From positions 1 through 27,591 of IMG/VR virus record IMGVR_UViG_3300020463_001280: 27,591 nucleotides of DNA. One strand, written 5' to 3'. Shown in pieces: positions 4,841 to 25,080 of this stretch. This DNA is from a virus. The notes below the pieces were generated by a model that worked only from the letters and a program-made list of their open reading frames with translations, was not told the origin of the DNA and searched no databases. The position numbers were made by a program, and so were the translations under genes. Each line of letters begins with the position of its first letter. Positions within the stretch are counted from its first letter, which is position 1.

Positions 4841-4869
4841 TTGACCTTTTGATAAAGAGGTGCTATTAT
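4841..4869 (+). promoter_or_regulatory. Sigma70-type promoter for the MoxR-like ATPase
   Basis: TTGACC (4841-4846) and TATTAT (4864-4869) are separated by 17 bp. The predicted start near 4876 leaves a leader of about 44 bases. It is nearly a sequence copy of the promoter at 6053-6081 (GGTTGAC, TTTT, TATTATATAA and then AATAAGG are shared), which suggests common control of the two genes. Confidence 0.75.
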
Positions 4870-4919
4870 ATAAACATAATAAGGCACTGAATATGACACA
4901 GAAAAAAAGGAGTACAAAA

Positions 4920-6008
4920 ATGGAAAATCTAGCAGTCCGTCAAGTAAGTCCTAACAATGCTAAGAAGAGCATTTTAAGGGCATTCAAAAAACAAAGACCG
5001 ATCTTTATATGGGGACCTCCAGGTATTGGTAAATCGGATATTGTTTCGCAAATAACAGAAACGTTTGATAATTCACACTTAATTGATATTAGGTTAAGTT
5101 TGTGGGAACCTACAGATATTAAAGGCATACCGTATTATGCTTCTAATGATAACACAATGAAGTGGGCACCTCCGGTTGAATTACCAGATGAGAAGATGGC
5201 TAAGAAATACAAGACTATTGTATTGTTCTTAGACGAAATGAATTCAGCCGCTCCGGCAGTACAGGCCGCGGCTTATCAACTTATTCTTAATAGAAGGGTT
5301 GGTACTTATAAACTACCTGACAACGTTTTGATTGTTGCCGCTGGTAACAGAGAAGCAGACAAAGGTGTTGTATATAGAATGCCTGCTCCGTTGGCTAACA
5401 GATTTGTTCACTTAGAACTTAAAGTGGATTTTGATGATTGGTTTCAGTGGGCAGTTGCAAATGATGTACACCAAGACGTTGTAGGTTATTTGACTTTTGC
5501 AAAGAAAGACTTGTATGACTTTGATCCTAAGAGTCCAAGTAGATCTTTTGCAACACCTCGTTCTTGGTCATTTGTATCCGAATTGCTTGAGGATGACGAT
5601 GACGAGAATACCACTACCGATTTGGTAAGTGGTGCAGTTGGCGAAGGCTTGGCTGTGAAGTTCATGGCGCACCGTAAGGTTGCTTCGAAACTCCCTAACC
5701 CAACAGACATTTTGGCTGGTAAGGTTAAGGATTTAGAGACTAAAGAAATCAGTGCCATGTATTCCTTAACAGTCTCTTTATGTTATGAACTTAAAGAAGC
5801 CTGTGATAAAAAAGATAAGAAGTTTGATACTAAGGTAAACAACTTCTTGAGATTTGCAATGGATAACTTTGAAACTGAATTGGTTGTCATGGGTATCAAA
5901 CTTGCACTTACTCAATATCAATTACCGATTGATCCAGATGAAGTCGAATGTTTCGATGAATTCCACGAAAAATTTGGTAAGTATATCTCGGCGGCACAAT
6001 CAGCCTAA
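4920..6008 (+). CDS. MoxR-type AAA+ ATPase
   Basis: I choose ATG 4920 because AGGAG (4908-4912) lies 7 bases upstream. An in-frame ATG at 4893 and a GTG at 4860 are possible but poorer. The 362-residue product has Walker A GPPGIGKS (32-39), Walker B VLFLDEMNSA (101-110, D105/E106), sensor 1 VAAGN (139-143) and PLANRF (157-162) with a candidate arginine finger. MoxR-family ATPases work with a VWA-domain partner as chaperones that remodel or insert cofactors into target complexes. The next gene encodes such a partner. From memory, this pair is conserved in T4-like marine phages. The gene has its own promoter and terminator. Confidence 0.88.
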   Translation: MENLAVRQVSPNNAKKSILRAFKKQRPIFIWGPPGIGKSDIVSQITETFDNSHLIDIRLSLWEPTDIKGIPYYASNDNTMKWAPPVELPDEKMAKKYKTIVLFLDEMNSAAPAVQAAAYQLILNRRVGTYKLPDNVLIVAAGNREADKGVVYRMPAPLANRFVHLELKVDFDDWFQWAVANDVHQDVVGYLTFAKKDLYDFDPKSPSRSFATPRSWSFVSELLEDDDDENTTTDLVSGAVGEGLAVKFMAHRKVASKLPNPTDILAGKVKDLETKEISAMYSLTVSLCYELKEACDKKDKKFDTKVNNFLRFAMDNFETELVVMGIKLALTQYQLPIDPDEVECFDEFHEKFGKYISAAQSA

Positions 6009-6015
6009 CCAATTT

Positions 6016-6050
6016 AGGGGGAGGATTTTGGTTCTCCCCCTTATCTTTTT
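6016..6050 (+). terminator. Intrinsic terminator after the ATPase gene
   Basis: AGGGGGAG (6016-6023) pairs with CTCCCCCT (6034-6041), extended by one G-T and one A-T pair around a 6-base loop, and is followed by TTATCTTTTT. This is a strong GC stem plus U-tract starting 8 bases after the stop codon. The promoter of the next gene follows 3 bases later. Confidence 0.85.
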
Positions 6051-6052
6051 GG

Positions 6053-6081
6053 TTGACATTTTCCGTTAAATATAGTATTAT
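6053..6081 (+). promoter_or_regulatory. Sigma70-type promoter for the VWA/metallopeptidase-like gene
   Basis: TTGACA (6053-6058), a 17-bp spacer and TATTAT (6076-6081). The start should fall near 6088, leaving about 20 bases of leader. It directly follows the terminator at 6016-6050 and resembles the promoter at 4841-4869. Confidence 0.8.
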
Positions 6082-6108
6082 ATAAGAACAATAAGGAATA
6101 GGCACAAC

Positions 6109-7371
6109 ATGACAGTACAAACATTAGAAAAAGTAGAAACTCCAGACATAGAAATTACTGACGAATTACGTAAAGAAGTATTTGATAAGATTGTAGTAGC
6201 AAGAGTAGGATTGCTTTTAAGACATCCTTTCTTTGGTAATATGGCTACAAGACTTATTATTAAAGAAGCAACAGATTGGTGTCCTACTGCGGCCACTGAT
6301 GGTAGACACTTGTTTTATAGTGTTCCTTTCTTTGCTAAAATGACTAACAAAGAAGTTGAGTTTGTTATTGCACACGAAATATTACATTGTGTATATGATC
6401 ATATGACACGTAGAGAAGATAGAGATCCACAGATACATAATATCGCGGCAGACTATATTGTAAACAATACACTTGTTAGAGATGGCATTGGTGAAAAACC
6501 TAAAGACATTCCAATTTTCCAAGACTTTAAATACGAAGGTTGGACATCTGAATCTGTATATGATGAAATTTATAAAAAGTATGATGAAGAAGAATTAAAG
6601 CAATTAGGTAAATTACTTGATGAGCATATTGACTGGGACAAAGATAGCGAAGGCAATTCTCCTGCTCCTAGTAAAAATGGTAAGAAGCAAGGTGGTAAGC
6701 CTGCTTATTCGAAAGAAGAATTACAAAAGATACGTGACGAAATAAAAGAGAATATGTTAGGTGCCGCACAGGCGGCTGGTGCAGGAAACTTACCTGCAGA
6801 AATCGAACGTATGATTAAAGAACTTACAGAACCTAAGATGAACTGGAGAGAAATTCTTAGACAACAAATACAATCAACTATTAAAAATGATTTTACTTTC
6901 CAACGTCCTTCACGTAAGGCTTGGCACACTGGTGCTATACTTCCTGGTATGAATTATGATCAGACAATTGATATTGCTATTGCAATAGATATGAGTGGTT
7001 CAATTGGGAATGAGCAAGGTGCAGACTTTTTAGGAGAGATACAAGGTATAATGCAAGAGTATCAAGACTACAATATTAAAATATGGTGCTTTGATACTAA
7101 GGTATATAATGAAGCAGACTTTACTGCCGACAATGGTACTGAACTTGCTGACTATAAACTTATGGGCGGTGGCGGAACAGACTTTATGTGTAATTGGGAT
7201 TACATGAAAGAGCAAGGTATTGAGCCAAAACGTTTCATTATGTTTACTGATGGTATGCCTTGGGATAGTTGGGGTGATCCAGATTACTGTGATACAGTAT
7301 TTGTTATTCATTCACACTATGATAAAAACACTGAATCACCATTCGGGGTATCAGTACATTATGAAGACTAA
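6109..7371 (+). CDS. Metallopeptidase-like plus VWA-domain protein (DUF2201 type), MoxR partner
   Basis: The 420-residue protein has an N-terminal zinc-metallopeptidase-like region with HEILH (89-93) followed by NIAADYIVNNTLV (111-123), a charged linker (about 155-215), and a C-terminal VWA-like domain. Its MIDAS elements are DMSGS (294-298), GGGGTDF (353-359) and FTDG (379-382). This matches the DUF2201_N plus VWA-like architecture. Such proteins are partners of MoxR ATPases, and the neighbouring gene encodes one. Whether the HExxH is proteolytically active cannot be decided here. It has its own promoter (6053-6081), and a weak AAGG/ATAGG precedes ATG. The stop lies inside the next gene's start region. 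Confidence 0.85.
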   Translation: MTVQTLEKVETPDIEITDELRKEVFDKIVVARVGLLLRHPFFGNMATRLIIKEATDWCPTAATDGRHLFYSVPFFAKMTNKEVEFVIAHEILHCVYDHMTRREDRDPQIHNIAADYIVNNTLVRDGIGEKPKDIPIFQDFKYEGWTSESVYDEIYKKYDEEELKQLGKLLDEHIDWDKDSEGNSPAPSKNGKKQGGKPAYSKEELQKIRDEIKENMLGAAQAAGAGNLPAEIERMIKELTEPKMNWREILRQQIQSTIKNDFTFQRPSRKAWHTGAILPGMNYDQTIDIAIAIDMSGSIGNEQGADFLGEIQGIMQEYQDYNIKIWCFDTKVYNEADFTADNGTELADYKLMGGGGTDFMCNWDYMKEQGIEPKRFIMFTDGMPWDSWGDPDYCDTVFVIHSHYDKNTESPFGVSVHYED

Positions 7372-9000: not shown

Positions 9001-10251
9001 ATGGCTTTAAGAATTAGAAGAGGAACAGAAGCGGAACGCCAGTTATTAACTGGTCAAGATCCAGCAATCGGCGAACCAATATTCGTTACAGACACGAATA
9101 AACTGTATATAGGTAAATCAGGTACTACAGGCGGGCAAATTATAAACCCCGATCAAGCACTTAATGACCTATCTAACGTAAACTGTCCTACTCCTACTAA
9201 CGGCCAAGCATTAGTTTTCAATACTGCTACAAACAAATGGATTAACGGTTCAGTACAAACTATTAATTCAATAGGTGATATTGCTGACGTTGATATTACT
9301 ACTGCGGCACCTACTACAAACCAAGTTTTAAAATGGAATGGTACAAAGTTTATTCCAGCAAATGATGTTGATACACAAATTGCTTTAGCAAGTGCTTCAA
9401 TTGATGACTTAGGAGATGTAAGTACATCAGGATCAGACGCACCAACTAATGGACAAGTTTTGACTTGGAATGCAAGTGCATCACAGTTTAAACCTTCTAA
9501 CCCAACATTTAACCAAACAGGATCTTTTGACGGTACATTTGAAGGTACTATGAAAGGTACACTTGTTGGTGATGACTCAACAATATTAGTTGACGGTATC
9601 ACTAATACTATTAAATTAGACAACGGACAAGTTTTCTTTGATGGCATACAAATTAAATTACTAGCAGGAAACAACAATTTAAAGTTTGGTGAAATAACAG
9701 ATTCAGTTGGTCCAACATTACAAATATACAACACAGATAAATCACAGCCTGTCGAAATTGCGGCAGTAGGTGGAACAGGTGCTGACTTTAGTAAGTTTAC
9801 TTTTAATGTTAAAGATAACTCATTACAAACACCAGTACAATTTTCAGCAGGTGATTCATTGGCAGGTATTGCCTGGAATGGTTGGGACACTAACAATTCT
9901 AAATATGTACCTTCAGCACTGATGTACACAAAAGTTTCAACTAGTGCAGGATCTATTGCGGCTGATACTGTAAAAGGTACACTTGTATTTGCAACCAATG
10001 ATGGTACATCAACACCAAGTTTAAAATACATGGAGTTTACTTCCGATGGTAGACTTTCAATTAATTCGCAGACTGCGAATGCAACTTTAGATGTAAATGG
10101 TAATGCAAAGATTGGTACAGAACTTTTATTAGGTTCTATGACAACTACACAAAGAAATGCACTTACGGCACAAAATGGTATGATCATTTACAATACCACA
10201 GACAACAAGTTCCAAGGCTACGAAAACGGTGCTTGGTCAAACTTAATCTAA
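9001..10251 (+). CDS. Tail fibre / receptor-binding structural protein
   Basis: A 416-residue protein. The N-terminus RIRRGTEAERQ, GEPIFVTDTNKLYIG (about 4-38) matches the start common to many phage fibre and tropism-determinant-like proteins. Three repeats of the form D-L-x-D-V ... P-T-x-x-Q-x-L-x-W-N ... K-F/W lie at about 56-84, 93-121 and 136-167. The centre is beta-rich and low in charge. The C-terminus (380-416) has TTTQRNALTAQNGMIIYNTT and YENGAWSNLI, a typical fibre tip end. It should form a trimeric distal tail structure that contacts the host. AGGAG 9 bases upstream and a late-promoter-like octamer support late expression. The accessory island begins 28 bases downstream. Confidence 0.85.
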   Translation: MALRIRRGTEAERQLLTGQDPAIGEPIFVTDTNKLYIGKSGTTGGQIINPDQALNDLSNVNCPTPTNGQALVFNTATNKWINGSVQTINSIGDIADVDITTAAPTTNQVLKWNGTKFIPANDVDTQIALASASIDDLGDVSTSGSDAPTNGQVLTWNASASQFKPSNPTFNQTGSFDGTFEGTMKGTLVGDDSTILVDGITNTIKLDNGQVFFDGIQIKLLAGNNNLKFGEITDSVGPTLQIYNTDKSQPVEIAAVGGTGADFSKFTFNVKDNSLQTPVQFSAGDSLAGIAWNGWDTNNSKYVPSALMYTKVSTSAGSIAADTVKGTLVFATNDGTSTPSLKYMEFTSDGRLSINSQTANATLDVNGNAKIGTELLLGSMTTTQRNALTAQNGMIIYNTTDNKFQGYENGAWSNLI

Positions 10252-10279: not shown

Positions 10280-10954
10280 ATGAGCACTATCACTCTCTAT
10301 ACTTCTGGAAGCACAGACAAACCAAAAACGGTTACCCATTCATGGACATATCTGCAGGAATGTGCAAGATGGAGTGCCAAAGAAATTGGTTTAACAGAGC
10401 AGGATAGGGTGCTTGATGTATTTCCTGCGAACACTATTGCCCACTGGACAATCACCGCCTTTCCTGCGTTTTTAAGCGGCGCACAGTACGTTTCTAGTCT
10501 GTTTGGTACATATACCTACCCTGAACTATTTAACCGCGTTAAACCGACGTATATCGCGTTAATACCACGTCATTTAGAACTGTTGATTAACACAAAAGGC
10601 TTTATGAATTTGGATATGAGTTGTGTAAAATATATGGTTACAGGCAGTTCCAAAATAGAACAAAGTTTCATAGATGCGTTTAAAGAAAGAGGCGTTCAAA
10701 AAATTGCAAATTGGTATGGTATGACCGAAGCACCTCCTCCTGTAATGATTGGTTATGATTCACCTACTTTTGATTTAGGTACAATAGATCAAAATAGATG
10801 GCACGTGATGTTTAGACCAATAGGAGAACATATTCGTTTGGCAGAGTGTATGATAAATGGAAGAGCAACGGGAGATATCTTTGATATGGATACTATGCAA
10901 TTTCATTCACGTTTGGATAATGTAGATGGTAAAACTTGGAAAAATAACTTTTAG
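10280..10954 (+). CDS. Minimal ANL-family adenylate-forming enzyme (acyl/AMP ligase N-domain)
   Basis: Only 224 residues, against about 500 or more for usual AMP-forming ligases. It retains the P-loop motif YTSGSTDKPK (7-16), the NWYGMTE motif (144-150), ATGD (196-199) and RLDN (211-214), and then ends where the C-terminal lysine domain would begin. It lacks the N-terminal sub-domain preceding the P-loop. The family activates a carboxylate as an acyl-adenylate. This form could still adenylate, but would need another protein, or nothing, for the transfer step. No Shine-Dalgarno is evident before ATG 10280. Its first 280 bases are markedly richer in GC than the flanks. It overlaps the next gene by 29 bases. 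Confidence 0.8.
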   Translation: MSTITLYTSGSTDKPKTVTHSWTYLQECARWSAKEIGLTEQDRVLDVFPANTIAHWTITAFPAFLSGAQYVSSLFGTYTYPELFNRVKPTYIALIPRHLELLINTKGFMNLDMSCVKYMVTGSSKIEQSFIDAFKERGVQKIANWYGMTEAPPPVMIGYDSPTFDLGTIDQNRWHVMFRPIGEHIRLAECMINGRATGDIFDMDTMQFHSRLDNVDGKTWKNNF

Positions 10955-11531
10955 AGAACTACTAGATAGCGACTTGGATAAGTTACAAGTTTTTTGTGAC
11001 CAGTGTAAAAATTTAGGCTACAATAATAATGTTTCATTTGATTCTATAAAACTTAATAAAATGAAGATGCCTTACGGCAAGTATTTTATAGGTATAGATG
11101 AAAGCAAAGACAAAATTTTTAATTTAGCAGGAGTACATCATTTACCAGAAGTGTCTAATAATGCGTGGCGGTGTTTGTTTAGAGGCGCACAATTACCTGG
11201 GTATAATTTAAGTAAAGGACTTACAAAAAATATATTTTTGACTGGTTATCAATTAAGTTATATATTACCTCTACAAATTAATTTTATTAGAAAACAATAT
11301 CCTGATTCTGTTTTTTATATGAGCAGTAATACACCTAAAGACACAAAAGACGCAAGTGGCAAAAGTATGCGTATGGATAAACTTATGCATAACACACTAT
11401 ATAAAGAAGGTGTTTTGAGTCTGTGGCAAGAAAACTTTGAATTATTTTATACTTCTCAAACTATTTGGGAAATAGATGAAAGTAAATATTGGCAGTATAG
11501 AAACAGATTTTTACCTAGCGATATAATCTAA
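10926..11531 (+). CDS. Unknown marine-phage protein, possibly acyltransferase-like
   Basis: A 201-residue protein with a start (ATG 10926) inside the end of the ligase gene. The opening ITFRELLDSDLDKLQVFC resembles the first strand and helix of GNAT acyltransferases. The best-conserved-looking stretch is AGVHHLPEVSNNAWRCLFRG (about 68-87) followed by AQLPGY. I recall similar LFRG-Q-PG proteins in marine phages, with no assigned role. If it is a GNAT, pairing with the acyl-adenylating enzyme would make sense, but the acetyl-CoA loop (Q/RxxGxG/A) is not visible. Its end overlaps the convergent halogenase gene by 21 bases. Confidence 0.6.
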   Translation: MVKLGKITFRELLDSDLDKLQVFCDQCKNLGYNNNVSFDSIKLNKMKMPYGKYFIGIDESKDKIFNLAGVHHLPEVSNNAWRCLFRGAQLPGYNLSKGLTKNIFLTGYQLSYILPLQINFIRKQYPDSVFYMSSNTPKDTKDASGKSMRMDKLMHNTLYKEGVLSLWQENFELFYTSQTIWEIDESKYWQYRNRFLPSDII

Positions 11532-13016
11532 AGCATCTTTTACACTATAATTATTTCTTAAAAGATGTTTGTAATTTTCAATTAATAATTTTGTGTAATG
11601 TAAATAATTTTCCATTTGCTCATCAGTAATATCCTTAAGAGGATTAATGTAAGGCTTATCAAATCCTAGTAGTAATGATGTCCAGTTCCACTGATTAAGT
11701 AATGTTTCGCCTTTACTCAACCATTTAGAACTCGCAAGTACATCTATATAATCACATAACTCTTGTAATGCAGTTGGATCATTTGCTACTTCTCTCCAAT
11801 ATGAAGTATCGTTTCTTTCACTTAACCTATAATGCATATGGACAAAACGTTTTGTATGATCAACAAATTTACGCATAACCTTATCGTGTGCTTTAATTAA
11901 ATTTTTACTATCCTTTTTATATAAGTCTACAAATGCTTTTACTGTAACACAGGTGACCATAATGCTAGTTGCTTCTAATGGTTCTATAAAACTTTGTGCA
12001 AGTCCATTACTTACGACATTGTGTTTACTTACATTTTCTAACATACCTGCATCAAATTCTACACTTTTAAATAATTTAAATTCATGTCCCTTTTGTTTCC
12101 AAAAATCTGTAATTGTTTGTAAAGCATCATCGTACTTTTGATGTTTACTGCTATACACATAACCAGAACCTATTTGGCCAATTGTAGGAATTTCCCATAT
12201 CCAACCATAGGGTTGGGCATGAGCAGATGTAACAGGATTACATGATTGCGTTTTTATAGTACCCCATATTGCTCTATCATTGATAAGTTCGTCATAGTGT
12301 TTCCAACTACTCATTGTGCCTATCAATAACCTTTTGAATCCTGTACAATCAAAGAATATGTCTGCTTCTATCTTTTGTCCTGTGGATAACTCTATGGCAC
12401 TTATGTTTTGATTGTCTGTATGTATTTTGTTTACTGTACCTACTATCTCTGTAAACTTATCTTTTGCAGTATGTTTTCTTAAACTTTCTCCAAATTGAAA
12501 TGCATTTATATGATAACTGTATCCAGGATATTCACTAATATTTGTTTTAAAATTTTTATCTTTTGGACTTAAATTGTTTGCAAGTAGGTGTTCTTGCGGT
12601 CCATGTGATTCGTTAAAATATTTGCTATCTTTAGTATTGCCATATTTTTTTAAATAATAATCTACACTTGTAAGTTCTTTTTTATATAACTCTTTTCCAT
12701 TTTCAGTAATAGGCCTATTAAAACTTTGATGAGGAATCATATCATCAAAACTATGCAACCATCTACTACCAGGCTTTACCCAATCATGAAATTCTACACC
12801 GTACTTAAATGTTGCCTTGGCATCTTTCATCCATTCCTTTTCATTTACACCAACAGTATCAGCAACGTGTTTAATTGTTGGAGTAGTGCTTTCTCCTACT
12901 CCAATAGGGTCTACTTCGTCACTATGAACGATTGTAATATCTGCATCTATAGTAGCAACGAGATAACTTAAAGTTATCCAACCTGCACTTCCTCCACCTA
13001 CTACACAAATTTTCAT
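11511..13016 (-). CDS. Flavin-dependent tryptophan-halogenase-family protein
   Basis: A 501-residue protein of normal family length. The FAD-binding motif GGGSAGW is at 7-13, VGESTTPTI at 40-48, the lysine that forms the chloramine/HOCl adduct in PrnA-type enzymes aligns with K71 in ATFKYGVEF (68-76), the halogenase signature WIWEIP is at 272-277, and FIEPLEATSI (343-352) supplies the catalytic glutamate region (E348). All diagnostic elements of the PF04820 family are therefore present. Activity needs reduced FAD from a reductase that I cannot identify here. Start ATG 13016 overlaps the upstream TGA (ATGA), with AAGGAT upstream. It is the last gene of a coupled minus-strand operon of oxygenases. 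The substrate is unknown. Confidence 0.92.
   Translation of the reverse strand: MKICVVGGGSAGWITLSYLVATIDADITIVHSDEVDPIGVGESTTPTIKHVADTVGVNEKEWMKDAKATFKYGVEFHDWVKPGSRWLHSFDDMIPHQSFNRPITENGKELYKKELTSVDYYLKKYGNTKDSKYFNESHGPQEHLLANNLSPKDKNFKTNISEYPGYSYHINAFQFGESLRKHTAKDKFTEIVGTVNKIHTDNQNISAIELSTGQKIEADIFFDCTGFKRLLIGTMSSWKHYDELINDRAIWGTIKTQSCNPVTSAHAQPYGWIWEIPTIGQIGSGYVYSSKHQKYDDALQTITDFWKQKGHEFKLFKSVEFDAGMLENVSKHNVVSNGLAQSFIEPLEATSIMVTCVTVKAFVDLYKKDSKNLIKAHDKVMRKFVDHTKRFVHMHYRLSERNDTSYWREVANDPTALQELCDYIDVLASSKWLSKGETLLNQWNWTSLLLGFDKPYINPLKDITDEQMENYLHYTKLLIENYKHLLRNNYSVKDALDYIAR
11531..11570. other. Stem-loop at the convergent gene ends (possible terminator)
   Basis: CATCTTTTA (11534-11542) and TAAAAGATG (11559-11567) are inverted copies, extended by a G-T and two A-T pairs outside, with a 16-base loop. 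It starts at the stop of the plus-strand gene at 11531 and lies inside the 3' end of the halogenase gene. It could end plus-strand transcription, but the stem is AT-rich and the U-tract is interrupted. Confidence 0.35.
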
Positions 13017-13492
13017 GAATCTATCCTTACGAATCCTTTTACATCTTCAAGTTCAGGTGTCAACACTTTACAGTCTACCAAATATATTGTAGACACATTT
13101 TTAAATTTTAAGACTGTAATTTTTGCATCAGCCACTAAAATTTTTACAATTCGGTCAGCAGTATCTATATAACTATTTTCATCTGTTTCAGCATTTAATA
13201 ATTGTATGTGAAAATTGTTTGCATCTATAAAAACTCTTTCACTAGCAATATTAATAGTTCCAATATTTCCGTGTAATCTATATAAGTTTGGTCTTGTCAA
13301 AGTTACAGTATCTACGTCCTTAGGTATGTCAACTGTACATCTATTATTAGGATTAGATTTATACGCCTCCCAAGTTTGTACTCCGTTCTCTAGATATCTA
13401 GCAAGTACCTTACCAGGTCCTGGTGTGTCTGCTCTTAATAAATGTCCTCGCGGAGTTTCTTTATGGTGTTCTTCCACCATGTTCTTTATCAT
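13013..13492 (-). CDS. Small beta-rich protein upstream of the halogenase, unknown function
   Basis: I place the start at the ATG at 13492, which overlaps the upstream TGA as ATGA and has AGGG six bases before it. A start at 13516 would add eight residues inside the previous gene. The 159-residue product has GHLLRADTPGPGKVLARY near 16-33 and then successive short strands (TVDIPKDVDTVTLTRPN, GTINIASERVFIDAN, IYLVDCKVL), suggesting a small beta-helix or beta-sandwich. No catalytic motif is visible. It is coupled to the oxygenase before it and the halogenase after it, so it may be a partner or substrate of the tailoring enzymes, which is inference. Confidence 0.65.
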   Translation of the reverse strand: MIKNMVEEHHKETPRGHLLRADTPGPGKVLARYLENGVQTWEAYKSNPNNRCTVDIPKDVDTVTLTRPNLYRLHGNIGTINIASERVFIDANNFHIQLLNAETDENSYIDTADRIVKILVADAKITVLKFKNVSTIYLVDCKVLTPELEDVKGFVRIDS

Positions 13493-14211
13493 ACTGTACC
13501 CTGTAAGTTTAAACAATCAAACATCTTATCAGATTGTATCCTAGCAAGTATATGTGCTCGTTCTGTTGTTCCTTCATTTAAAGTTCCGTGATGTATATGT
13601 GTGTTAATAATGTATGCCTTACCTGCCTCCATAGGATACTTTCTTTCATGGTTTGGACCAAAACAAAATACGTTTTTATCATTCGTCTTTAAAACAATAT
13701 GAATCTTTTTAACTTGGCTGTCAATGTGTGGTTTTATTTCTGCACCTGGTCCGTGTATTGTAATCACAGGCTGACCCATTTCTATATCACCTAAAAAATT
13801 TGTAAGGTCCTTCATATACCCAAAGTTATATCTTTCTAGCAAAGTTGCTTTATCTTCAAACTCAGGATCTAGCACTTCTGGGAATACTTCTTTGTTTACC
13901 TGGTTAGGTGGCGGTATTGGAATATCCCTATCTATTGGCCAACCTATTGTGTAACCTCCAATAGGACCACAATAATATCCACAGTAGTTACCTTCCATAT
14001 ATTGCTTACTAATTTCAATATCTAATAAATCTGGAAAGTCTGTAAAGTTAAAGTAAGTTTCTTTTCTAAATTTTTTCTCAACTTCATTAAAATATTCTAT
14101 TGCTTTAGCAGGATCTAGTTGCCAATTTAATTCAATTATGTCCCAATCCTTGCTAGTGTGTAATCCATTTATATCTATGTCTTTTGCATTATAATCTTTA
14201 ATCATCTTCAT
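13489..14211 (-). CDS. Aspartyl/asparaginyl beta-hydroxylase-fold oxygenase
   Basis: The 240-residue protein shows the compact cupin pattern of the Asp_Arg_Hydrox (PF05118) type: TIHGPGAEIKPHID (151-164) with H162-x-D164, IINTHIHHGT (201-210) with the distal histidine at 207 or 208, and TERAHILARI (216-225) with the 2OG-binding arginine R218. It would use Fe(II), O2 and 2-oxoglutarate to hydroxylate a side chain or small molecule. About 140 residues precede the core, including a cysteine/glycine patch GNYCGYYCGPIGG (74-86) and a proline-rich stretch (97-103). Its start shares a base with the previous stop (TAATG), with GGAG upstream. Confidence 0.8.
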   Translation of the reverse strand: MKMIKDYNAKDIDINGLHTSKDWDIIELNWQLDPAKAIEYFNEVEKKFRKETYFNFTDFPDLLDIEISKQYMEGNYCGYYCGPIGGYTIGWPIDRDIPIPPPNQVNKEVFPEVLDPEFEDKATLLERYNFGYMKDLTNFLGDIEMGQPVITIHGPGAEIKPHIDSQVKKIHIVLKTNDKNVFCFGPNHERKYPMEAGKAYIINTHIHHGTLNEGTTERAHILARIQSDKMFDCLNLQGTV

Positions 14212-14804
14212 TATATTTCTCCATCTGCCATATCTAAAACATCATGTTCTTTATCATGTGGAATTTTAAAGAATAAATGAATTCTATTTGTATCGCCATT
14301 GTTTTTAGTTCCGTGTTTTACACTTGTATTGACAAGATACATTTTTCCTTCATCAGGTAAAATATATTCTCTAGCAGGTTCAAATATAAAAAGACTTTTG
14401 TTATTACTATAGATAGGAACGTGTATTTTGTAAAAGGCATCTGAATCATTATGTAAATTTATTTTTGTACCCGGTGGATGTACTGCTATACTAAATTGAT
14501 GTGCAAAAGGAAACTGGTCTTTTATTTCGTTTATGTATCCAAACATTGCCGCAGTATCTCTATATTCGTGTTTTTCCTCTTTTGTTATGTTATAAGGTGG
14601 ACAAGGTTTTTCTAAGTCTTCTAAATTACTTTGTAATGCCCAACCATATACACCTTTAAGAATGTGTCCGCCAACACCTTCATCTACATTGCTATCTTCT
14701 GCAGACCACTTAAGATGTGAATAAGATTTTTCTAATTCTTTATACCAATCACGTAACTTATTCATATTGACTTTTTTCTTTAAAACTTTTAAATCATTGT
14801 TCAT
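14211..14804 (-). CDS. Aspartyl/asparaginyl beta-hydroxylase-fold oxygenase
   Basis: A 197-residue protein with VHPPGTKINLHNDSD (108-122; H118-x-D120), MYLVNTSVKHGT (155-166; H164) and TNRIHLFFKI (172-181; R174), the full HxD...H...R set of the PF05118-like family. The N-terminus begins with a lysine-rich stretch and a WYKELEKSY helix that is shared with the next paralogue (WYKDLEENW), so the two probably arose by duplication. The start overlaps the upstream TGA (ATGA). The substrate is unknown. Confidence 0.8.
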   Translation of the reverse strand: MNNDLKVLKKKVNMNKLRDWYKELEKSYSHLKWSAEDSNVDEGVGGHILKGVYGWALQSNLEDLEKPCPPYNITKEEKHEYRDTAAMFGYINEIKDQFPFAHQFSIAVHPPGTKINLHNDSDAFYKIHVPIYSNNKSLFIFEPAREYILPDEGKMYLVNTSVKHGTKNNGDTNRIHLFFKIPHDKEHDVLDMADGEI

Positions 14805-15475
14805 TGTAATAACAATCCTATCTCATCTACCCACACTTTACCATAAAGGTGTATCCTATCAGTGTTTCCTTTATTCTCTACACTATGTGGAATACTTGTA
14901 TTAACAAGATAAGCATATCCTGGTTCCATGTGTATTTGTTCTCCATCTAATGTCCAATTACTGTCTTTGTTAGTATGTATTGGTATGTGTATTCTAATTT
15001 TATCTGTGCTATCTGTATGAGTAATAAGTTTTGTACCAGGAGTATGTATAGTGACCATCCAACGTTTACTTCTTACAGGTAAATTATCAACAAGTTCTCT
15101 TCCATATCCATAAAAGTTTTTCCTTGGATACAATTCATCTAGATCCTCGTCTTTATATTCATCTTTTGCAATTACTGTTTCAGGAGGTAATGGTCCTTCT
15201 TTATCACCATTGAAACAAAGTACATACCAAGCAGTGTCATCTTTAAAAATATGTCCTGTCTTGCCAGTTGGATCTCCAACTTCCATTTTCCACATATCTT
15301 TATTTTTACCGTATATGAACTTCCAATCATTCCAGTTTTCTTCTAGATCTTTATACCAAGATTGTATTTTATCAACATCGACTGCAAATAATCTCTTTAC
15401 TTTCCAGTCGAGATCTAAAGGCTTGTATGTTCTAATATAAGGTTTGAAACCTGGGATGTGTTGTCCTTCGTCCAT
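14801..15475 (-). CDS. Aspartyl/asparaginyl beta-hydroxylase-fold oxygenase
   Basis: The 224-residue protein carries TIHTPGTKLITHTDS (142-156; H153-x-D155), YLVNTSIPHSVE (189-200; H197) and TDRIHLYGKV (205-214; R207). It is close in layout to the 14211-14804 product, with the shared WYKDLEENW helix at 40-48. The core follows about 140 residues that include GHIFKDDTAWYVL (74-86), a counterpart of GHILKGVYGWAL in the neighbour. The start (15475) overlaps the preceding gene by 44 bases, unusually long for this operon. AAAGAG lies upstream and no later ATG would keep the N-terminus. The substrate is unknown. Confidence 0.8.
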   Translation of the reverse strand: MDEGQHIPGFKPYIRTYKPLDLDWKVKRLFAVDVDKIQSWYKDLEENWNDWKFIYGKNKDMWKMEVGDPTGKTGHIFKDDTAWYVLCFNGDKEGPLPPETVIAKDEYKDEDLDELYPRKNFYGYGRELVDNLPVRSKRWMVTIHTPGTKLITHTDSTDKIRIHIPIHTNKDSNWTLDGEQIHMEPGYAYLVNTSIPHSVENKGNTDRIHLYGKVWVDEIGLLLQ

Positions 15476-16901
15476 GTTTTACTCTTTCGTTTAAGTCTAC
15501 TCCTACGTAATCATGCCCATACAATATTAAATTATCCGGAATCAATGATTCAAATTTATTAAACTTTTCTTCTAATACTTCGGGTGTTATGTTCCAGTGT
15601 AGCATTTCACTGGACCAAATGTTCGTGGTCCATAATACCCTAGTACCGTGTATTGTATTTATTTTATCAAATAGTTGCTCTGGATTATTAACGATATCTA
15701 TAACATAAAATTCGTGTTTAAGTTTTCTATACCTATCCCATAAACTTTGAAATCTAAAACTTCCGCCAAACTCTTTTAGTTCTTGTTCCCAGAATTGTTT
15801 ATAGTTGCCACGATATGTACTGCTAAAATTATAAGTTAAGTCATGCTCTAAGAGCCATTTATCCAAATCATAACCGTCCCAAGTTTCTAATAAATGCTTT
15901 TTATAATTAATACTCGCTTCGCACCAATCAAAGTAATGTACAGTTGTACCCTCATGAAATCCGTTTGCATTTAGTATTGCCAAAGGTTTGAATCCAGCCG
16001 CCGCAGTAAAGAAATGATCTATGTGTCTACCTTCTGTACGTACTCCTTCTCCCGAAAGTGTCTCTGTATTAAAAGCATACACTCTATCTTTTTCTATTTC
16101 TTCTTGATAACCTAGTTTTCTAATCCATGCCTTTTGACTTTGATTCAATCCTTCAACGCTGTCCTTTTCGAGCCACGCTGTTGCCATTTTATCTGATTGA
16201 TTGTAAGGATATAAAAATACTTTGCAATCTCGCATATCGTTATCTAAATTATCTATTTTTATATTATTACGCATAGCAATATCAATCCAATTACTTCCAT
16301 CTGCTGTTATATTATATTCTTGCTGTCCTTCGATCGGTTTAATCCATGCTGGAGTATATTCACTATGAACAGTATCTTCGCTGTACTCAAAATTGGACAG
16401 CAAAGGTTTTCTTGCATCATATACACCTATTTCATCAAAGTCTGGTTGTCCTAATTCTACCCATCTGTTTAAATTTACAAACAAATATTGTCTATGTAAT
16501 CCTGGATAAGATCCTGATGTAAGATAATGTTGTTTCTTTTTATCCATTATATGACCAACAACAAAGAAGTCTTCATTGTCTTCTGCATACTTAAGACTCT
16601 GTGTAATTAGACTTGGACCTCTAAATAAAAGCAATCCTTGACAAGCAATCATACAGTATTCCTTGCCTTCTATTATAGAAAGTTCTAAAATTTCTTTTAT
16701 AGTTTTATGAAACCCTACATACGAACACATACCCATTTTAATCATTCTATTAATATAAAAGTATGTCATATCAAATGAACGTTTTTGTAAAAACTTATTA
16801 GGAATATCTCTTGAGATATCTAATATGCCAATACCTACTTTATTGTCCACATTAATATTTTCATAATACCTATCTACTGTGATACTATTCCAGTCTTTCA
16901 T
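15432..16901 (-). CDS. Large two-part protein, possibly glycosyltransferase-like, function unknown
   Basis: A 489-residue protein. The N-terminal half (about 40-175) has the feel of a GT-A glycosyltransferase: a helix leading to EGKEYCMIACQGLLLFRGP, then FFVVGHIMD (about 112-120), PGLHRQYLFVNLNRWVELG. A clear DxD metal motif is not present. The C-terminal half contains FTAAAGFKPLAILNANGFHEG (about 299-319), a FDWCEASINYKKHLLETWDG segment and a late aromatic region. Both halves resemble proteins that I recall from marine phages without proven roles. It lies between two Asp-hydroxylase-fold genes. If it is a transferase, glycan decoration near the tail-fibre locus would fit, but this is only a suggestion. 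Confidence 0.6.
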   Translation of the reverse strand: MKDWNSITVDRYYENINVDNKVGIGILDISRDIPNKFLQKRSFDMTYFYINRMIKMGMCSYVGFHKTIKEILELSIIEGKEYCMIACQGLLLFRGPSLITQSLKYAEDNEDFFVVGHIMDKKKQHYLTSGSYPGLHRQYLFVNLNRWVELGQPDFDEIGVYDARKPLLSNFEYSEDTVHSEYTPAWIKPIEGQQEYNITADGSNWIDIAMRNNIKIDNLDNDMRDCKVFLYPYNQSDKMATAWLEKDSVEGLNQSQKAWIRKLGYQEEIEKDRVYAFNTETLSGEGVRTEGRHIDHFFTAAAGFKPLAILNANGFHEGTTVHYFDWCEASINYKKHLLETWDGYDLDKWLLEHDLTYNFSSTYRGNYKQFWEQELKEFGGSFRFQSLWDRYRKLKHEFYVIDIVNNPEQLFDKINTIHGTRVLWTTNIWSSEMLHWNITPEVLEEKFNKFESLIPDNLILYGHDYVGVDLNERVKHGRRTTHPRFQTLY

Positions 16902-16902
16902 A

Positions 16903-17598
16903 TTAACCTTTATTTGTAAAGTAACTTTGTCTTAACACGTAAAAGAAATCTCTTATACGTCTGCCTAATTCATAATGTATTATCATATGAATGCGTGGTT
17001 CGTTACTATCATTATATACTGCGTGTACGTTTGAAATATCCATTAAGAATGCACTACCTTTGTCTTCAAAAGGCACTACTCCATGATCCTTAAACACAAA
17101 CTTACAACCTTGAGGATTGTTTAGACTTATATTGCAAACACTTAATCTCTTTTCTTTGTCTTCACGATCTTGATGTGGTTCAATGTATCCGCCGGGTTCT
17201 AATAACATAAAACGCACACGATTTAAAAATTCTGCTGGCCAAACATTAGTCAGAAACTTTTTTGTTTCAGGACATTGTTCTGCTACCCAAGTCCAGTCTA
17301 ATTGTTTAACAACATCTTTGCGATCGCCATATTGATCCAAACTTTGTGTATCATCATTAAGACCGTGCAAGGTAAGACTCTTCCAACCCTTGCCATAATC
17401 CATTCTGTGGTCTTTAAAATGTTCTAATAATGATTCTGCTTCTAGATGCATTTTATCCCACGGTTGGGTATCTAATGCACTTAACTTAAAGCAAGGCCAA
17501 CCACTTTCCAGCACCACCCATTTAGGATCAAACTGCTCTGGATACTGTATTTTTATTGGTTTTTCGTGTTGTTCAAAAAATTGTTTTAATGCTTTCAT
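16903..17598 (-). CDS. Aspartyl/asparaginyl beta-hydroxylase-fold oxygenase
   Basis: The 231-residue product has MLLEPGGYIEPHQDRED (131-147; H142-x-D144), FLMDISNVHAVYND (184-197; H192) and PRIHMIIHYE (201-210; R202). This version, with EPGG...HQD, is the most canonical of the five in the window and is the one most like classic aspartyl beta-hydroxylase. The N-terminal 120 residues hold YGKGWKSLTLHGL (68-80), also typical of the family. It is the first gene of the minus-strand operon, 86 bases from the divergent plus-strand operon. The ribosome site is weak. Confidence 0.85.
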   Translation of the reverse strand: MKALKQFFEQHEKPIKIQYPEQFDPKWVVLESGWPCFKLSALDTQPWDKMHLEAESLLEHFKDHRMDYGKGWKSLTLHGLNDDTQSLDQYGDRKDVVKQLDWTWVAEQCPETKKFLTNVWPAEFLNRVRFMLLEPGGYIEPHQDREDKEKRLSVCNISLNNPQGCKFVFKDHGVVPFEDKGSAFLMDISNVHAVYNDSNEPRIHMIIHYELGRRIRDFFYVLRQSYFTNKG

Positions 17599-18234: not shown

Positions 18235-19269
18235 ATGAGATGTAAATATTTAGATCACCAGATTAATGTCCGCACTGACGGACAATACAGACTTTGTTGT
18301 ATGAGTCTTGAACCAGAAAATGATTATAATATTAAAAAACATACTCCACAAGAATGGCACGACAGTGAGTTTCATAAAAAGACTCGAGAACAAATGGAAC
18401 GCAATGAATGGCCTGATGCTTGTACTAGATGTGAACAAATGGAAAAGCAAGGCTTAACTAGTCAAAGATTAAAACTTAAAGCATATGGTCCTGGGTTGTC
18501 TCATTTAGATTTAAGATTAGGAAATAGTTGTAATTTAAAATGTATTAGTTGTTGGCATATGAGCAGTAGCAGTATTGCTGAAGAGGCCATTGCTATGCAA
18601 AAAGCAGGAGTCACACCATTACATGGAATCCTAGATGTACCTAACTTCAATTGGAGTAGTGAGGAAACATTTGATAAACTTTTAGAACTACCCGTACAGG
18701 AAGTTTATTTTACTGGTGGTGAACCTATGATGGTAAAACATTTACCTGCTTTCTTAGAAAGATTAGATCCAGACACACAGATAAGATTCAATACAAACTG
18801 TACAATATGGAATCCTAAACTCGAAAAACTTTTACGTAAGTTTAGAATGGTAATAATGAGTTTAAGTTTAGATGCAACAGATAGCCGCATTGATTATATT
18901 AGGAATGGTAGTAAATGGAAAGAAGTAATAGAACCTAACTTACACAGATATGGTTCCTTTGCAAAAGTAGACATTGCTCCAACAGTGAGTATTTTAAATG
19001 CTTGGTTCTATGACGACATAAAAGAATACGCAGATAAGCACGGATATAAATTATTTGAAAACCTGCTTATGTTACCAGAATGGTTACACGTTAAGAACGC
19101 ACCAGATAAATTAAAGAAACAATTTCAAGGAGTAGACCAATGGTCATCACAAGAAGCCGATCCTAAAAAGATAGAAGAATTCAAAAGAAACATCACAAAA
19201 TTAGACAACTGGAGAAAGATGTATATAAAAGATTATTTAGGACCAGTTGCAGAAGCATACGGATTGTAA
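18235..19269 (+). CDS. Radical SAM protein with N-terminal twitch-like cysteine region
   Basis: The 344-residue protein has the radical SAM cluster motif CNLKCISC (C99, C103, C106) and the SAM-binding TGGEP (160-164). In front of the barrel lie C21-C22 and C63-C66, a layout that matches the N-terminal twitch radical SAM group, in which an auxiliary iron-sulfur cluster precedes the barrel. Such enzymes cleave SAM to a 5'-deoxyadenosyl radical. The substrate is unknown. The segment LDLRLGNSCNLKC closely matches the equivalent DLRLGNVCQLKC in the 23649-24944 protein, so the two are paralogues. It is preceded by the SDR-like gene and followed by the kinase-like gene. Confidence 0.88.
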   Translation: MRCKYLDHQINVRTDGQYRLCCMSLEPENDYNIKKHTPQEWHDSEFHKKTREQMERNEWPDACTRCEQMEKQGLTSQRLKLKAYGPGLSHLDLRLGNSCNLKCISCWHMSSSSIAEEAIAMQKAGVTPLHGILDVPNFNWSSEETFDKLLELPVQEVYFTGGEPMMVKHLPAFLERLDPDTQIRFNTNCTIWNPKLEKLLRKFRMVIMSLSLDATDSRIDYIRNGSKWKEVIEPNLHRYGSFAKVDIAPTVSILNAWFYDDIKEYADKHGYKLFENLLMLPEWLHVKNAPDKLKKQFQGVDQWSSQEADPKKIEEFKRNITKLDNWRKMYIKDYLGPVAEAYGL

Positions 19270-19278
19270 TTGAAAGTC

Positions 19279-19725
19279 ATGAAGTTAATAAAAGAAAACA
19301 AACAAAAAAGAAGGCAGGTATGGGAGTATGATGATTACTTTCGTAAGCAGTGGTTGTTTAATGATGAACGTTGGTTAAAAAACCACTATGAAATACTACA
19401 GAACATTGCACCCGATAAATATCTCAAAGGTTGGGGCACTAGTAATAACACGATGTGGATAGACACAAACAAGATAGAAGGTGAATTAGCAAGTGGGTTT
19501 GACCATACTCCAGACTTTGTAAAAAAAATTGAGAACTTCTGCTTAGATCATTATTACACAAAAACAAAACCATATGCACATGGTGATTGGGTTTTAAGTA
19601 ATATGATTATTAAAGATGATGAAATAATTTTGATTGATTGGGATAACTGTGGCATATATCCTGAACCACAAATATTACATAAGATGCAATTAGATCTAAA
19701 GTCTGCGTTTGGAGATAAGATATGA
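19279..19725 (+). CDS. Reduced APH/choline-kinase-like phosphotransferase
   Basis: From ATG 19279 the product is 148 residues. A TTG at 19270 would add three. It contains PYAHGDWVLSN (98-108), the catalytic loop of aminoglycoside-phosphotransferase-like kinases, and ILIDWDN (117-123), the metal-binding DFG counterpart. The whole ATP-binding N-lobe is missing, so only the C-lobe core remains (usual length is about 260-350). From memory, similar mini-kinase-like proteins occur in marine phages. It may phosphorylate a small molecule or sugar, or have become a binding protein. It ends with an ATGA overlap with the first propeller gene. Confidence 0.72.
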   Translation: MKLIKENKQKRRQVWEYDDYFRKQWLFNDERWLKNHYEILQNIAPDKYLKGWGTSNNTMWIDTNKIEGELASGFDHTPDFVKKIENFCLDHYYTKTKPYAHGDWVLSNMIIKDDEIILIDWDNCGIYPEPQILHKMQLDLKSAFGDKI

Positions 19726-20960
19726 CCCCACAAGCATTTAGTTACCCAACTGTAAGTAATAACGGCAAAATATATATACCGCCGTATGGACTTAATGAAA
19801 TCGTTGACTATATGTTAAAGTTTGATCCTGTGGATAACTCTTTTAAAAAAATTAAATTAGAAGTAAATGCTTTACCAGAAAAATGGCAATGTGGCATTGC
19901 ATATAGAAATAAAGTCTATTTTTTGCCATATAACGAAGATAATATTTTAGTTGTAAATACAGACGATGATAGCATAGAATACGTAAATGTAAACCATCCT
20001 GGCAAAGGAAAATATATCCAAGCACACATACATGGCGATAAATTAATTGCTTTACCTTACGGGGAACATGATCCTTATGATTATGTGTTAACATTTTATT
20101 TTAGAAATAACCTAGCAACATTTCATAAAATTAAGTTACCAAAGAACGATAGTAAGAAATGGCATACTACACAAATGGTAGATGGAATAATTTATGGGTT
20201 ACCTAGAGGCGAAAATTGGGAAGACACTTTTAATTATAGAATAAGTTATGACTGCAATAGTGGTGAGTATGAGATAGCAGACATGAGTCCTATATGGTTG
20301 GACTACAACAAACAACCTATGAATAATAAAAAATATACAACAATGGCAAAGGTTGGTAATAGATTATATGCACCACCTTACAGTGAAAATCCAGAGTTTG
20401 ATATCTTAAGTAAATTTGTAAACGGTGATTGGTATAGTGAACGTACAGGAATAAAAGGCACTAGCAGAAAGTATTTCAGTCATACGGTTGCTAGTAATGG
20501 AAAAGTATTTTTTCCACCCGCAGGACATGATGAAGACTGGAGCGAAATGTTAGTTGTAGATAGTATTAAAGATAATGGCAATGACAAGTATTGGCACACT
20601 ATTGACTTAAACATTGGTAAAGAAAGTAAAAAGTATTTTGCAGGTGTCGAAAACAGTCAAGGCAAAATATATTACATACCACGTGGTGGTTGTGTTTGTG
20701 AGCCAGAAGATACTTGGAAGAGCCAGGGTGATCTTAATAGTATTTTAGTGATTGACATCTACACAGAAAAGTTTTATACTATAGATATAAGTGACCATTT
20801 CAAAGAGTTTACAACAATAGAAAAATATAATAAGTGTGTGCTAATTGATGATGTTATATATGCATTTCCTTATGGTGAATCAAAAGACTTTCATCAGTTA
20901 TTAATATTTGACACTTTAGCAGACAAAGTTTTAGAAACAATAGATTTAAGAAATGTATAA
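19722..20960 (+). CDS. Beta-propeller-like repeat protein
   Basis: A 412-residue protein built from eight repeats with a core of the form G-K-I-Y-x-x-P-Y/R-G. Cores lie near residues 17-23, 65-70, 108-114, 157-163, 215-220, 262-268, 316-322 and 379-385. The 43-58 residue spacing with alternating hydrophobic strands (for example ILVVNT, MLVVDS, ILVIDI) fits kelch/NHL-like propeller blades. There is no signal peptide or membrane segment. Such propellers usually bind ligands, glycans or proteins. GGAG lies 7 bases before the ATG. A longer paralogue-like copy follows. Its role in the island is unknown. Confidence 0.7.
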   Translation: MTPQAFSYPTVSNNGKIYIPPYGLNEIVDYMLKFDPVDNSFKKIKLEVNALPEKWQCGIAYRNKVYFLPYNEDNILVVNTDDDSIEYVNVNHPGKGKYIQAHIHGDKLIALPYGEHDPYDYVLTFYFRNNLATFHKIKLPKNDSKKWHTTQMVDGIIYGLPRGENWEDTFNYRISYDCNSGEYEIADMSPIWLDYNKQPMNNKKYTTMAKVGNRLYAPPYSENPEFDILSKFVNGDWYSERTGIKGTSRKYFSHTVASNGKVFFPPAGHDEDWSEMLVVDSIKDNGNDKYWHTIDLNIGKESKKYFAGVENSQGKIYYIPRGGCVCEPEDTWKSQGDLNSILVIDIYTEKFYTIDISDHFKEFTTIEKYNKCVLIDDVIYAFPYGESKDFHQLLIFDTLADKVLETIDLRNV

Positions 20961-22098
20961 AGCATTTGAAGATTATTACAAAGACGAAAGCATTAAGCAT
21001 TTAATTTTACACGATTGGAATGGAACTTTAGTAAGTCCTCCATTCGCTACTGAAAAATGTAGAGATTATTCTAATTTAATGTTTCTAGAAAAAGGCCAGA
21101 TGCATTATATAAAACTTGACCTACCTGAAGCAACAAGCAAGACTAATGCACTTGCAAATATAGGAAATAGTTTATGGTTTGTTCCTTATGCGATCTATGA
21201 TAAATTTAATCAGGTTGTAGAAGTAACCAAAGGTGGTGTAAATTATTTTCCGGTTGACATTTCAGGCAAAGGACAGTATTATAGTATAGCATCAAATGGA
21301 GACTCTGCATTCAGTTTTCCTCTTGGATATACTGATGAGAGTTTTGGTCTCTACATTCGAGACGGTCAGGTAATAAAAGTAGATCTTGCACAGCGGGGCC
21401 TTAAGTTGCATATGGGGACTGTTTGGTGTAATGACCGTTATTTTAGTATGCCACGCGGAGACGAGCCAGGCTACAATTACCTATTAAGTTTTAATGGCAA
21501 AGATGTAGAGAAGTATGAAGTTCCTTATATCAACAAGAACATTACACGTAAGTTTACTGACTGTATAGTTGTAGGCAAAAAGTTGTTTGCGTTACCGTTT
21601 GGAGAAACTGCAGGCGTAAACTGTGTTGTAGAGTTTGATACAGAGACTAACACGTTTGCTACACATAACCTACAAGGCATAGACTTTGCAAAGAAATACA
21701 ATGCAGGAGTTCTACTAGGAAAAACCATCATTGCACTACCTTACGGAGATGAACACGTTAATGATAGTAATTTAGGCCTTAAATTTGACACCATTACAGG
21801 CCAGTCAGATCAGTTCAAAATTAATCAAAGTTTCGGCGGAAAGTACAGATTTAGGTGTGGAATTAAATATTATGACGAAGCATACTTCTTTCCTTCTGGT
21901 ACACCTGCTTGTCCTATACTAGTAATTAACAAGTACGGACAAATTACAAACGAATTGCACGAAAGAAATGTACTTTTCGGAAGACCGATAGTCTTTAATG
22001 ATTTTATCCATGTTATAAAAGTCGACTTGACAACCAAGTCACACAAACTTTGCATTTACGATCGTAATTTACAAATAGTTAATGAACAAATTATTTAA
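20953..22098 (+). CDS. Second beta-propeller-like repeat protein
   Basis: The 381-residue product has the same blade theme as its neighbour, with cores such as GNSLWFVPYA, GDSAFSFPLG, NDRYFSMPRG, GKKLFALPFG, GKTIIALPYG and YDEAYFFPSG, each followed by a strand of the type YLLSF or VVEFD. I count at least six clear blades and probably a seventh at the N-terminus. It overlaps the first propeller by 8 bases, so a tandem duplication is likely. No signal peptide is present. It ends in an 8-base overlap with the convergent radical SAM gene. It also contains a promoter-like sequence at 21254-21282. Confidence 0.7.
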   Translation: MYKAFEDYYKDESIKHLILHDWNGTLVSPPFATEKCRDYSNLMFLEKGQMHYIKLDLPEATSKTNALANIGNSLWFVPYAIYDKFNQVVEVTKGGVNYFPVDISGKGQYYSIASNGDSAFSFPLGYTDESFGLYIRDGQVIKVDLAQRGLKLHMGTVWCNDRYFSMPRGDEPGYNYLLSFNGKDVEKYEVPYINKNITRKFTDCIVVGKKLFALPFGETAGVNCVVEFDTETNTFATHNLQGIDFAKKYNAGVLLGKTIIALPYGDEHVNDSNLGLKFDTITGQSDQFKINQSFGGKYRFRCGIKYYDEAYFFPSGTPACPILVINKYGQITNELHERNVLFGRPIVFNDFIHVIKVDLTTKSHKLCIYDRNLQIVNEQII

Positions 22099-23002
22099 TT
22101 AATTCTTTTCTAAGATATATGTCAGTCAGACAACCGCATAGTTCTTTATTACAGATAACCGTTTTTTGAGGTAAAATAAAATCTTCTAGTGTACCAATTA
22201 GTCCACCTTGCAAACATTCTGCTCTAAAAATTCTACCCCATTCAATATAAATCATATCTAGTCCTGCCCAACATTTCCAACCCTTATGCTTGTTTAATCC
22301 TTCAACGATTAATTCATTTGCATCTATTTTTCTTTCGTCATAGAATATTTCACCTCTATGTAAATGACTATCATCTAGTTTCCTAAAGTAAGGCCATTTG
22401 TTTATAATTTCTTTTTGCTCTTTGGTGTAGACACTGACTTCATTTGTAATATAGTCACCACTTGTCTTATCTAAAATTAGTTTAGGCCATACTGCTAATC
22501 TATCTGTATTGTCATATAATGTAGCGGCAACCTTTTCTGCTTCTTTAAATCCTTTAGTATCATTAGGCATCATTAAATTCACAGCAATTTGCATTTTTGT
22601 ATTGTTTGCTATGTCTATAAACTTTTGCACGTCTGCATAAGCATGGTGGTAACTAATAATCATGCCATCTGTGTAAGGATCTATCTTTTTATAGTAGTCT
22701 ACACTTTGACTTCCGTTGGTAATAAAACTAAATGTGTGGCCTTGTTCTTTAATAAGTTTTGCCATGTCAATAAAACGTTTCCAGAAAGTAGGTTCACCAC
22801 CTGTAATTCTGTAACAAATTTCTTTGTCTTTAATTTTTAAACTTTTTATAAAGTTTTCTACGATGTCCCATTTAGGTTGTCCACTAGATCCGTTATGCAA
22901 AAAGTCAGGACAATAAGTGCAACGGTAATTACACTTATTTGATAACGCCCAACTGACTAAGAACCAATTTTCTTTGTCGGGATTTGCATAATTTATCTTC
23001 AT
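22091..23002 (-). CDS. Radical SAM protein with C-terminal SPASM/twitch-like cysteines
   Basis: A 303-residue protein with the cluster motif CNYRCTYC (C24, C28, C31) and TGGEP (67-71) at the start of a short barrel. The C-terminus has C244, C263, C284, C289 and C291 (KTVICNKELCGCL), enough to ligate an auxiliary iron-sulfur cluster. This layout is common in SPASM/twitch enzymes that modify peptides or sugars, but the substrate is not evident here. The start overlaps the upstream stop (TAATG). It is the last gene of the minus-strand operon D and converges with the propeller operon. Confidence 0.88.
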   Translation of the reverse strand: MKINYANPDKENWFLVSWALSNKCNYRCTYCPDFLHNGSSGQPKWDIVENFIKSLKIKDKEICYRITGGEPTFWKRFIDMAKLIKEQGHTFSFITNGSQSVDYYKKIDPYTDGMIISYHHAYADVQKFIDIANNTKMQIAVNLMMPNDTKGFKEAEKVAATLYDNTDRLAVWPKLILDKTSGDYITNEVSVYTKEQKEIINKWPYFRKLDDSHLHRGEIFYDERKIDANELIVEGLNKHKGWKCWAGLDMIYIEWGRIFRAECLQGGLIGTLEDFILPQKTVICNKELCGCLTDIYLRKELIK

Positions 23003-24944: not shown

Positions 24945-25080
24945 CTTTCTCCAATACGTACTTTATGTTGCAGTAGCCACATATGGCTTCTCCATTTTTA
25001 AGTGTGTAATATACCTTAGGATGATCGTCATTTTCTCCTGTACAAGAAATATGTTCTTCTTTTACGTAGACAATTTTCAT
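24937..25080 (-). CDS. CHCC zinc-finger miniprotein (NDUFS6-like)
   Basis: This ORF of 47 residues reads MKIVYVKEEHISCTGENDDH and then PKVYYTLKNGEAICGYCNIK. It has C13, H20-P21, C34 and C37, the zf-CHCC (PF10276) pattern found in small alphaproteobacterial proteins related to the complex I subunit NDUFS6. It fills the 132-base gap between two genes, starting in an ATGA overlap with the methyltransferase stop and ending 8 bases into the next gene. This spacing and the fully placed zinc ligands make it very likely real. Its role may be metal delivery or protein contact, possibly for the radical SAM enzyme next to it. Confidence 0.78.
   Translation of the reverse strand: MKIVYVKEEHISCTGENDDHPKVYYTLKNGEAICGYCNIKYVLEKDE

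Follow-up and report, generated by a model that had tools for sequence, protein, structure and literature searches.

The window, by which we mean the whole 27,591-base stretch of DNA analysed here (an IMG/VR virus record, from a marine phage), carries a gene whose product is very probably an active class A flavin-dependent halogenase, its activity and halogenation chemistry being predicted from the sequence. This gene adjoins a pair of genes, for a truncated AMP-binding protein and a GNAT-fold protein, beside which halogenases recur in other viral loci. Taken as a whole, the enzyme probably carries out halogenation within a modification pathway of the phage, on a substrate that would either derive from an intermediate of the cassette or be a side chain of a protein or glycan. 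Phage halogenases as such are already known, and the less expected part is the gene context of this one. The central genes are:

9001..10251, plus strand: tail fibre or receptor-binding-type protein, its gene immediately preceding the AMP-binding gene (Mtd_N, PF18454; phrog_677, baseplate wedge tail fibre connector, T4-type)
10280..10954, plus strand: truncated AMP-binding (adenylate-forming) protein, 224 aa (PF00501, E = 1.8e-22, profile positions 168-331 of 384)
10926..11531, plus strand: GNAT-fold acyltransferase-like protein, 201 aa (AlphaFold2 pLDDT 88.9; top Foldseek matches all GNAT)
11511..13016, minus strand: predicted class A flavin-dependent halogenase, 501 aa, with K71, E348 and W272/W274 (PF04820, residue mapping, AlphaFold2, Foldseek)
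13013..13516, minus strand: 167-aa protein with no assigned function, ATGA-coupled to the halogenase (kept in L002-L004)

The halogenase ORF (11511-13016) runs on the minus strand from a start at 13016 to a TAA stop at 11511-11513. A sequence-only reading of this DNA had described it as a complete flavin-dependent halogenase of 501 residues, and all the motifs quoted there were found: the FAD motif GxGxxG is present as GGGSAGW at residues 7-13 (GGGSAG from residue 7), K71 sits within ATFKYGVEF, the WxWxIP motif reads WIWEIP (residues 272-277, aligned with PrnA 272-277), and FIEPLEAT occupies residues 343-350, E348 being the second glutamate of EPLE. The Pfam scan returned a whole-domain match to PF04820 over residues 2-453 (308.9 bits; cut-off 21; E = 8e-92), and PHROG 2928, 'tryptophan halogenase', matched at E = 1.5e-97. 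About 30 halogenase sequences from the PDB match at E <= 7e-30, with AbeH, RebH, PyrH and SttH among the best and VirX1 (6QGM) at E = 5e-41. Other viral contigs preserve the reading frame, at identities of 77%, 59% and 51-55%. At the level of sequence the ORF is confirmed as real, its match lying far beyond chance. The claimed ATGA coupling to an operon is likewise seen, as the TGA stop of the upstream 167-aa ORF overlaps the ATG of the halogenase at 13013-13016; the minus strand had been absent from the earlier description. At its 3' end the gene overlaps the convergent GNAT gene (10926-11531) by 21 bases.

We aligned the protein with PrnA, RebH, PyrH, AbeH, Xcc4156, BrvH and VirX1. K71 falls on the catalytic lysine (K79 of PrnA and RebH), E348 on the catalytic glutamate (E346 of PrnA, E357 of RebH), and W272, W274, I276 and P277 all fall on WxWxIP; a displacement of lysine or glutamate, which the sequence-only reading had named as evidence against a halogenase, is thus not observed in the alignment. 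The structure prediction proposed there gave an AlphaFold2 model (pLDDT 78.6, pTM 0.83) for which Foldseek found AbeH, RebH, PyrH, Thal and PrnA in the PDB (TM ~0.75-0.79, E ~1e-35), i.e. a PrnA/RebH-type fold. Residues 91-113, 153-164 and 346-349 are modelled with low confidence (pLDDT < 50 for 346-349), the support for E348 being that of the alignment. In PrnA and RebH, class A halogenation proceeds by HOX delivered to the lysine. This lysine is kept in 66 of 66 viral representatives and the glutamate in 64 of 66. Nine bacterial PF04820 representatives provide a natural control: they are without the lysine, most of them also without the glutamate, and form a separate bacterial clade. We considered that the window protein might be a non-halogenating paralogue of this kind and rejected the idea, because the members devoid of lysine and glutamate belong to a different clade; in the phylogeny against bacterial flavin-dependent halogenases the window protein stands outside it. 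The bacterial proteins without the lysine (L162, L166, L173, L179, L198, L212, L216, L217 and L223), which have apparently intact paralogues nearby, are by their residues likely not halogenases despite their family name.

Among 105 representatives placed in a tree, the window protein and VirX1 belong to one group (SH-aLRT 96) in which 75 of the 76 rows are viral; inside this group the window halogenase has its own clade of six rows (support 99). In a 59-row tree the viral label has to change twice. As the sequences were sampled by similarity to viral profiles, the viral exclusiveness of this group is not a census. A purely viral group was rejected, the sole bacterial member (L149) lying in a genuine Rhodobacter-like chromosomal locus. 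By this tree the window protein is a divergent subclade of the large group to which VirX1 belongs and whose members are nearly all viral.

The idea that a phage halogenase would be something new was not borne out, because phage members have been on record for years and relatives are numerous. Halogenase genes named prnA were tabulated for T4-like cyanophages in 2010 (PMC3037559, PMC2984593), a survey found such a gene in 20 of 153 cyanophages (PMC10452541), and VirX1 of cyanophage Syn10 is presented in a review as the first characterised viral halogenase, crystallised, preferring iodide and taking many aromatic substrates (PMC8407142; PDB 6QGM). We located VirX1 as CPUG_00131 in the Syn10 record. 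In INPHARED, 67 records have a match, and a scan of IMG/VR yielded at least 573 confirmed relatives. L012 (MT835646), a contig from human faeces that is labelled 'Bacteriophage sp.' and unverified, has halogenases that group with bacterial Xcc4156/BrvH, and may not be a phage.

VirX1 and the window enzyme are both phage-borne PF04820 proteins of class A type, in one viral supergroup and with lysine, glutamate and WxWxIP in register, but they are only 28% identical and belong to different subclades. Next to the VirX1 gene are another halogenase and several short genes in a row that have no annotation, whereas the window gene adjoins the AMP-binding/GNAT pair. The prnA genes of the cyanophages and pelagiphages P-SSM2, HTVC008M, P-TIM40 and S-RIM44 lie, like the window gene, near virion and 2OG oxygenase genes, at 26-32% protein identity; for the AMP-binding protein of the window type, a single weak match was all that INPHARED contained. 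RebH, PrnA, PyrH and AbeH have the fold, the FAD motif, the catalytic lysine and glutamate and WxWxIP in common with the window protein, which differs in having no Trp4 motifs and in its clade. BrvH and Xcc4156 (group C type) are also without Trp4 and keep the catalytic residues, but form a separate, mostly bacterial clade.

That the halogenase is carried by a phage, as first proposed, agrees with the IMG/VR record, the Mtd-like tail fibre gene, and a T4-type portal together with gp23 in four of the tested large contigs (150-356 kb) that have the same AMP-binding gene family. The 27,591-base window contains no capsid or terminase gene. A search of the first ten relatives for T4 gp23 found none, as those contigs are fragments. 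At 4860-7371 of the window, a MoxR-type AAA ATPase adjoins a VWA/metallopeptidase-domain protein (DUF2201), for which the PHROG label HNH endonuclease is unsupported by the Pfam match.

The two genes of the pair overlap by 29 bases. The 224-aa AMP-binding protein keeps TSGSTDKPK, YGMTE, TGD and RLD; the first third of PF00501 is missing from it, as is the C-terminal domain. This short form (about 205-245 aa) is usual across 51 viral loci (L093-L143). A C-terminal TWK is conserved in five aligned members of the family. For the 201-aa neighbour Pfam gave chance matches only, and a profile match to the GNAT 3t9y had E = 0.0055; its GNAT fold was settled by the predicted structure. A GNAT profile search of five bacterial genomes found none, a result that shows little as it had no positive control, and a DNA-level search of INPHARED with 10280-13016 gave no match. 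In three loci (L022:11228-13426, L135:5800-7995, L138:5800-7995) a 732-aa B12-binding radical SAM protein ends in a fused GNAT-like domain; in L020 and L136 this domain is a separate protein.

To test the association, the 51 AMP-binding loci were grouped into clusters at an 80% identity threshold, and pair clusters were counted where the flank was sufficient. Where the AMP-binding/GNAT pair is adjacent, a halogenase accompanies it in 12 of 15 dereplicated loci; eight loci with an AMP-binding gene and no adjacent GNAT have none (Fisher p = 3e-4, a value that is too small because the loci are related phages and their independence is overstated). Three of the 15 pair loci lack a halogenase, so one is not required for the pair to work. 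A second architecture (L135-L140, L142 and L143) also combines the pair with halogenases, all genes being on one strand and the order the other way round; it has two halogenases together with B12-type radical SAM proteins. Where a phage has an AMP-binding gene 66-73% identical to that of the window, the slot that holds a type A halogenase in window-like phages is taken by a type B halogenase of 368-405 aa, ~25% identical and of a different clade. Both the second architecture and this exchange of clades count for an association beyond shared descent; the replacement suggests that halogenation itself, rather than one particular protein, is what is kept. We consider it likely that halogenase and pair are functionally coupled. 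Against this reading, some close halogenases (L013, L014, L016, L017) lie outside the cassette, among glycosyltransferases, or with 2OG oxygenases and tail genes. Small halogenases (335-415 aa, ~25% identical to the window enzyme) were noted at the same slot in related phages (L105:7927-9099, L098:4470-5573, L022:10218-11231), and those sampled keep the residues aligned with the catalytic lysine and glutamate.

The recurrence bears on another account, by which a promiscuous, VirX1-like halogenase would make a free halogenated small molecule (e.g. a halo-indole) for auxiliary metabolism or chemical defence, its neighbours being unrelated passengers in a hypervariable region. Such an account could draw on the common supergroup of VirX1 and the window enzyme, on the broad range of aromatic substrates that the review ascribes to VirX1, on close relatives in other contexts and on the gene-rich hypervariable islands of marine T4-like phages (PMC3037559). 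Mere passengers would hardly explain why the halogenase recurs by the AMP-binding/GNAT pair across differing gene orders and strands, or why another halogenase clade takes the same slot, and we regard this account as rather unlikely. It is improbable, too, that the protein acts on free tryptophan in the manner of PrnA, RebH and PyrH, so that chloro- or bromotryptophan would enter protein synthesis or metabolism. Its best single PDB matches are indeed tryptophan halogenases (AbeH, RebH, PyrH), but its tree position is with the viral halogenases and not with PrnA, RebH and PyrH. Moreover, a Trp4 substrate-binding motif marks the tryptophan halogenases of groups A and B (PMC8269204), and neither of the two patterns is present in the window halogenase. 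Free tryptophan is therefore not the expected substrate, and there are good grounds in the motif pattern to presume a different one.

More improbable still is a flavoprotein monooxygenase that, with radical SAM partners, would hydroxylate a peptide-bound aromatic residue without any halogenation. The precedent is QhpG, which has a related, halogenase-like fold and dihydroxylates a peptidyl tryptophan crosslinked by a radical SAM enzyme (PMC7876137); the cassette has radical SAM genes, and the window halogenase gives weak NCBIfam matches to QhpG and GoxB. Yet the match to the QhpG model amounts to only 31 bits (NF049967, 31.5 bits against a cut-off of 240), compared to 309 bits for PF04820, and the catalytic lysine, the glutamate and WxWxIP are all there.

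For the preferred reading, i.e. a halogenating step within a phage modification pathway, the family, the fold, the register of the catalytic residues, the viral clade and the association with the AMP-binding/GNAT pair were computed; as to activity, the halide used, the substrate and how the steps succeed one another, we infer the following. Pfam scans found no flavin reductase among the window proteins scanned, and a host reductase would therefore supply reduced FAD. The reduced FAD would react first with O2 and next with halide, and the hypohalous acid so formed would pass to K71; E348 would activate the aromatic substrate for halogenation. The truncated adenylate-forming enzyme would activate an acid, the GNAT-fold protein would transfer the acyl group, and several 2OG oxygenases would hydroxylate; to judge by these neighbours, halogenation would more likely be directed at an acyl group that is activated or transferred, or at the side chain of a protein or glycan, than at free tryptophan. 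The further genes of the cassette are:

13489..14211, minus strand: Asp/Arg-hydroxylase-like 2OG-Fe(II) oxygenase (PF05118, E = 2e-7; HxD...H...R)
14211..14804, minus strand: Asp/Arg-hydroxylase-like 2OG-Fe(II) oxygenase (PF05118, E = 5.5e-9; HxD...H...R)
14801..15475, minus strand: Asp/Arg-hydroxylase-like 2OG-Fe(II) oxygenase (PF05118, E = 6e-13; HxD...H...R)
15432..16901, minus strand: 489-aa protein with no assigned function (many viral contigs have 51-68% homologues next to the cassette)
16903..17598, minus strand: Asp/Arg-hydroxylase-like 2OG-Fe(II) oxygenase (PF05118, E = 1e-12; 66-77% homologues in other cassettes)
18235..19269, plus strand: twitch-domain radical SAM protein with CNLKCISC, recurrent cassette member (PF04055; NF033640, 215.7 bits)
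19270..19725, plus strand: short protein of APH-like kinase fold, recurrent cassette member (PF01636, E = 0.001, below the cut-off)
19722..20960, plus strand: 412-aa protein with repeated PPYG/PYGE motifs, recurrent cassette member (beta-propeller-like by eye)

The HxD...H...R motif is intact in all four oxygenases. The 489-aa protein had no match in Pfam, PHROG, PDB or INPHARED, and the 412-aa protein no phage match in INPHARED. Tentatively, the recurring cassette, comprising the mini AMP-binding enzyme, the GNAT, an exchangeable halogenase, Asp-hydroxylase-like oxygenases and twitch radical SAM proteins and often found beside a tail fibre gene, might build a halogenated and hydroxylated acyl product, or decorate a virion protein or glycan with it, in a tailoring pathway that has not been described as such; our literature search found no description of the cassette. 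The tail fibre itself as the target of halogenation would fit the gene order and is a doubtful proposition, the neighbouring tail fibre gene being suggestive only as a pointer to a virion target.

As a single gene, the window halogenase adds a divergent subclade (51-100% identical) to the phage halogenases, a group from which enzymes with open active sites, VirX1 among them, can be drawn. We know of no natural substrate of any phage halogenase. The conserved pairing of mini AMP-binding enzyme and GNAT provides the first concrete gene neighbours by which such a substrate could be tracked; the cassette context, with its hint at a halogenated product or a virion decoration, is the part worth following.

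Two further observations concern the right-hand part of the window. Two adjacent proteins with PPYG/PYGE repeats, beta-propeller-like by eye, lie at 19722-22098 and are kept in the cassette of several contigs. Four radical SAM genes occur within 9 kb (18235-27206), two of which are clear twitch-domain members (NF033640).
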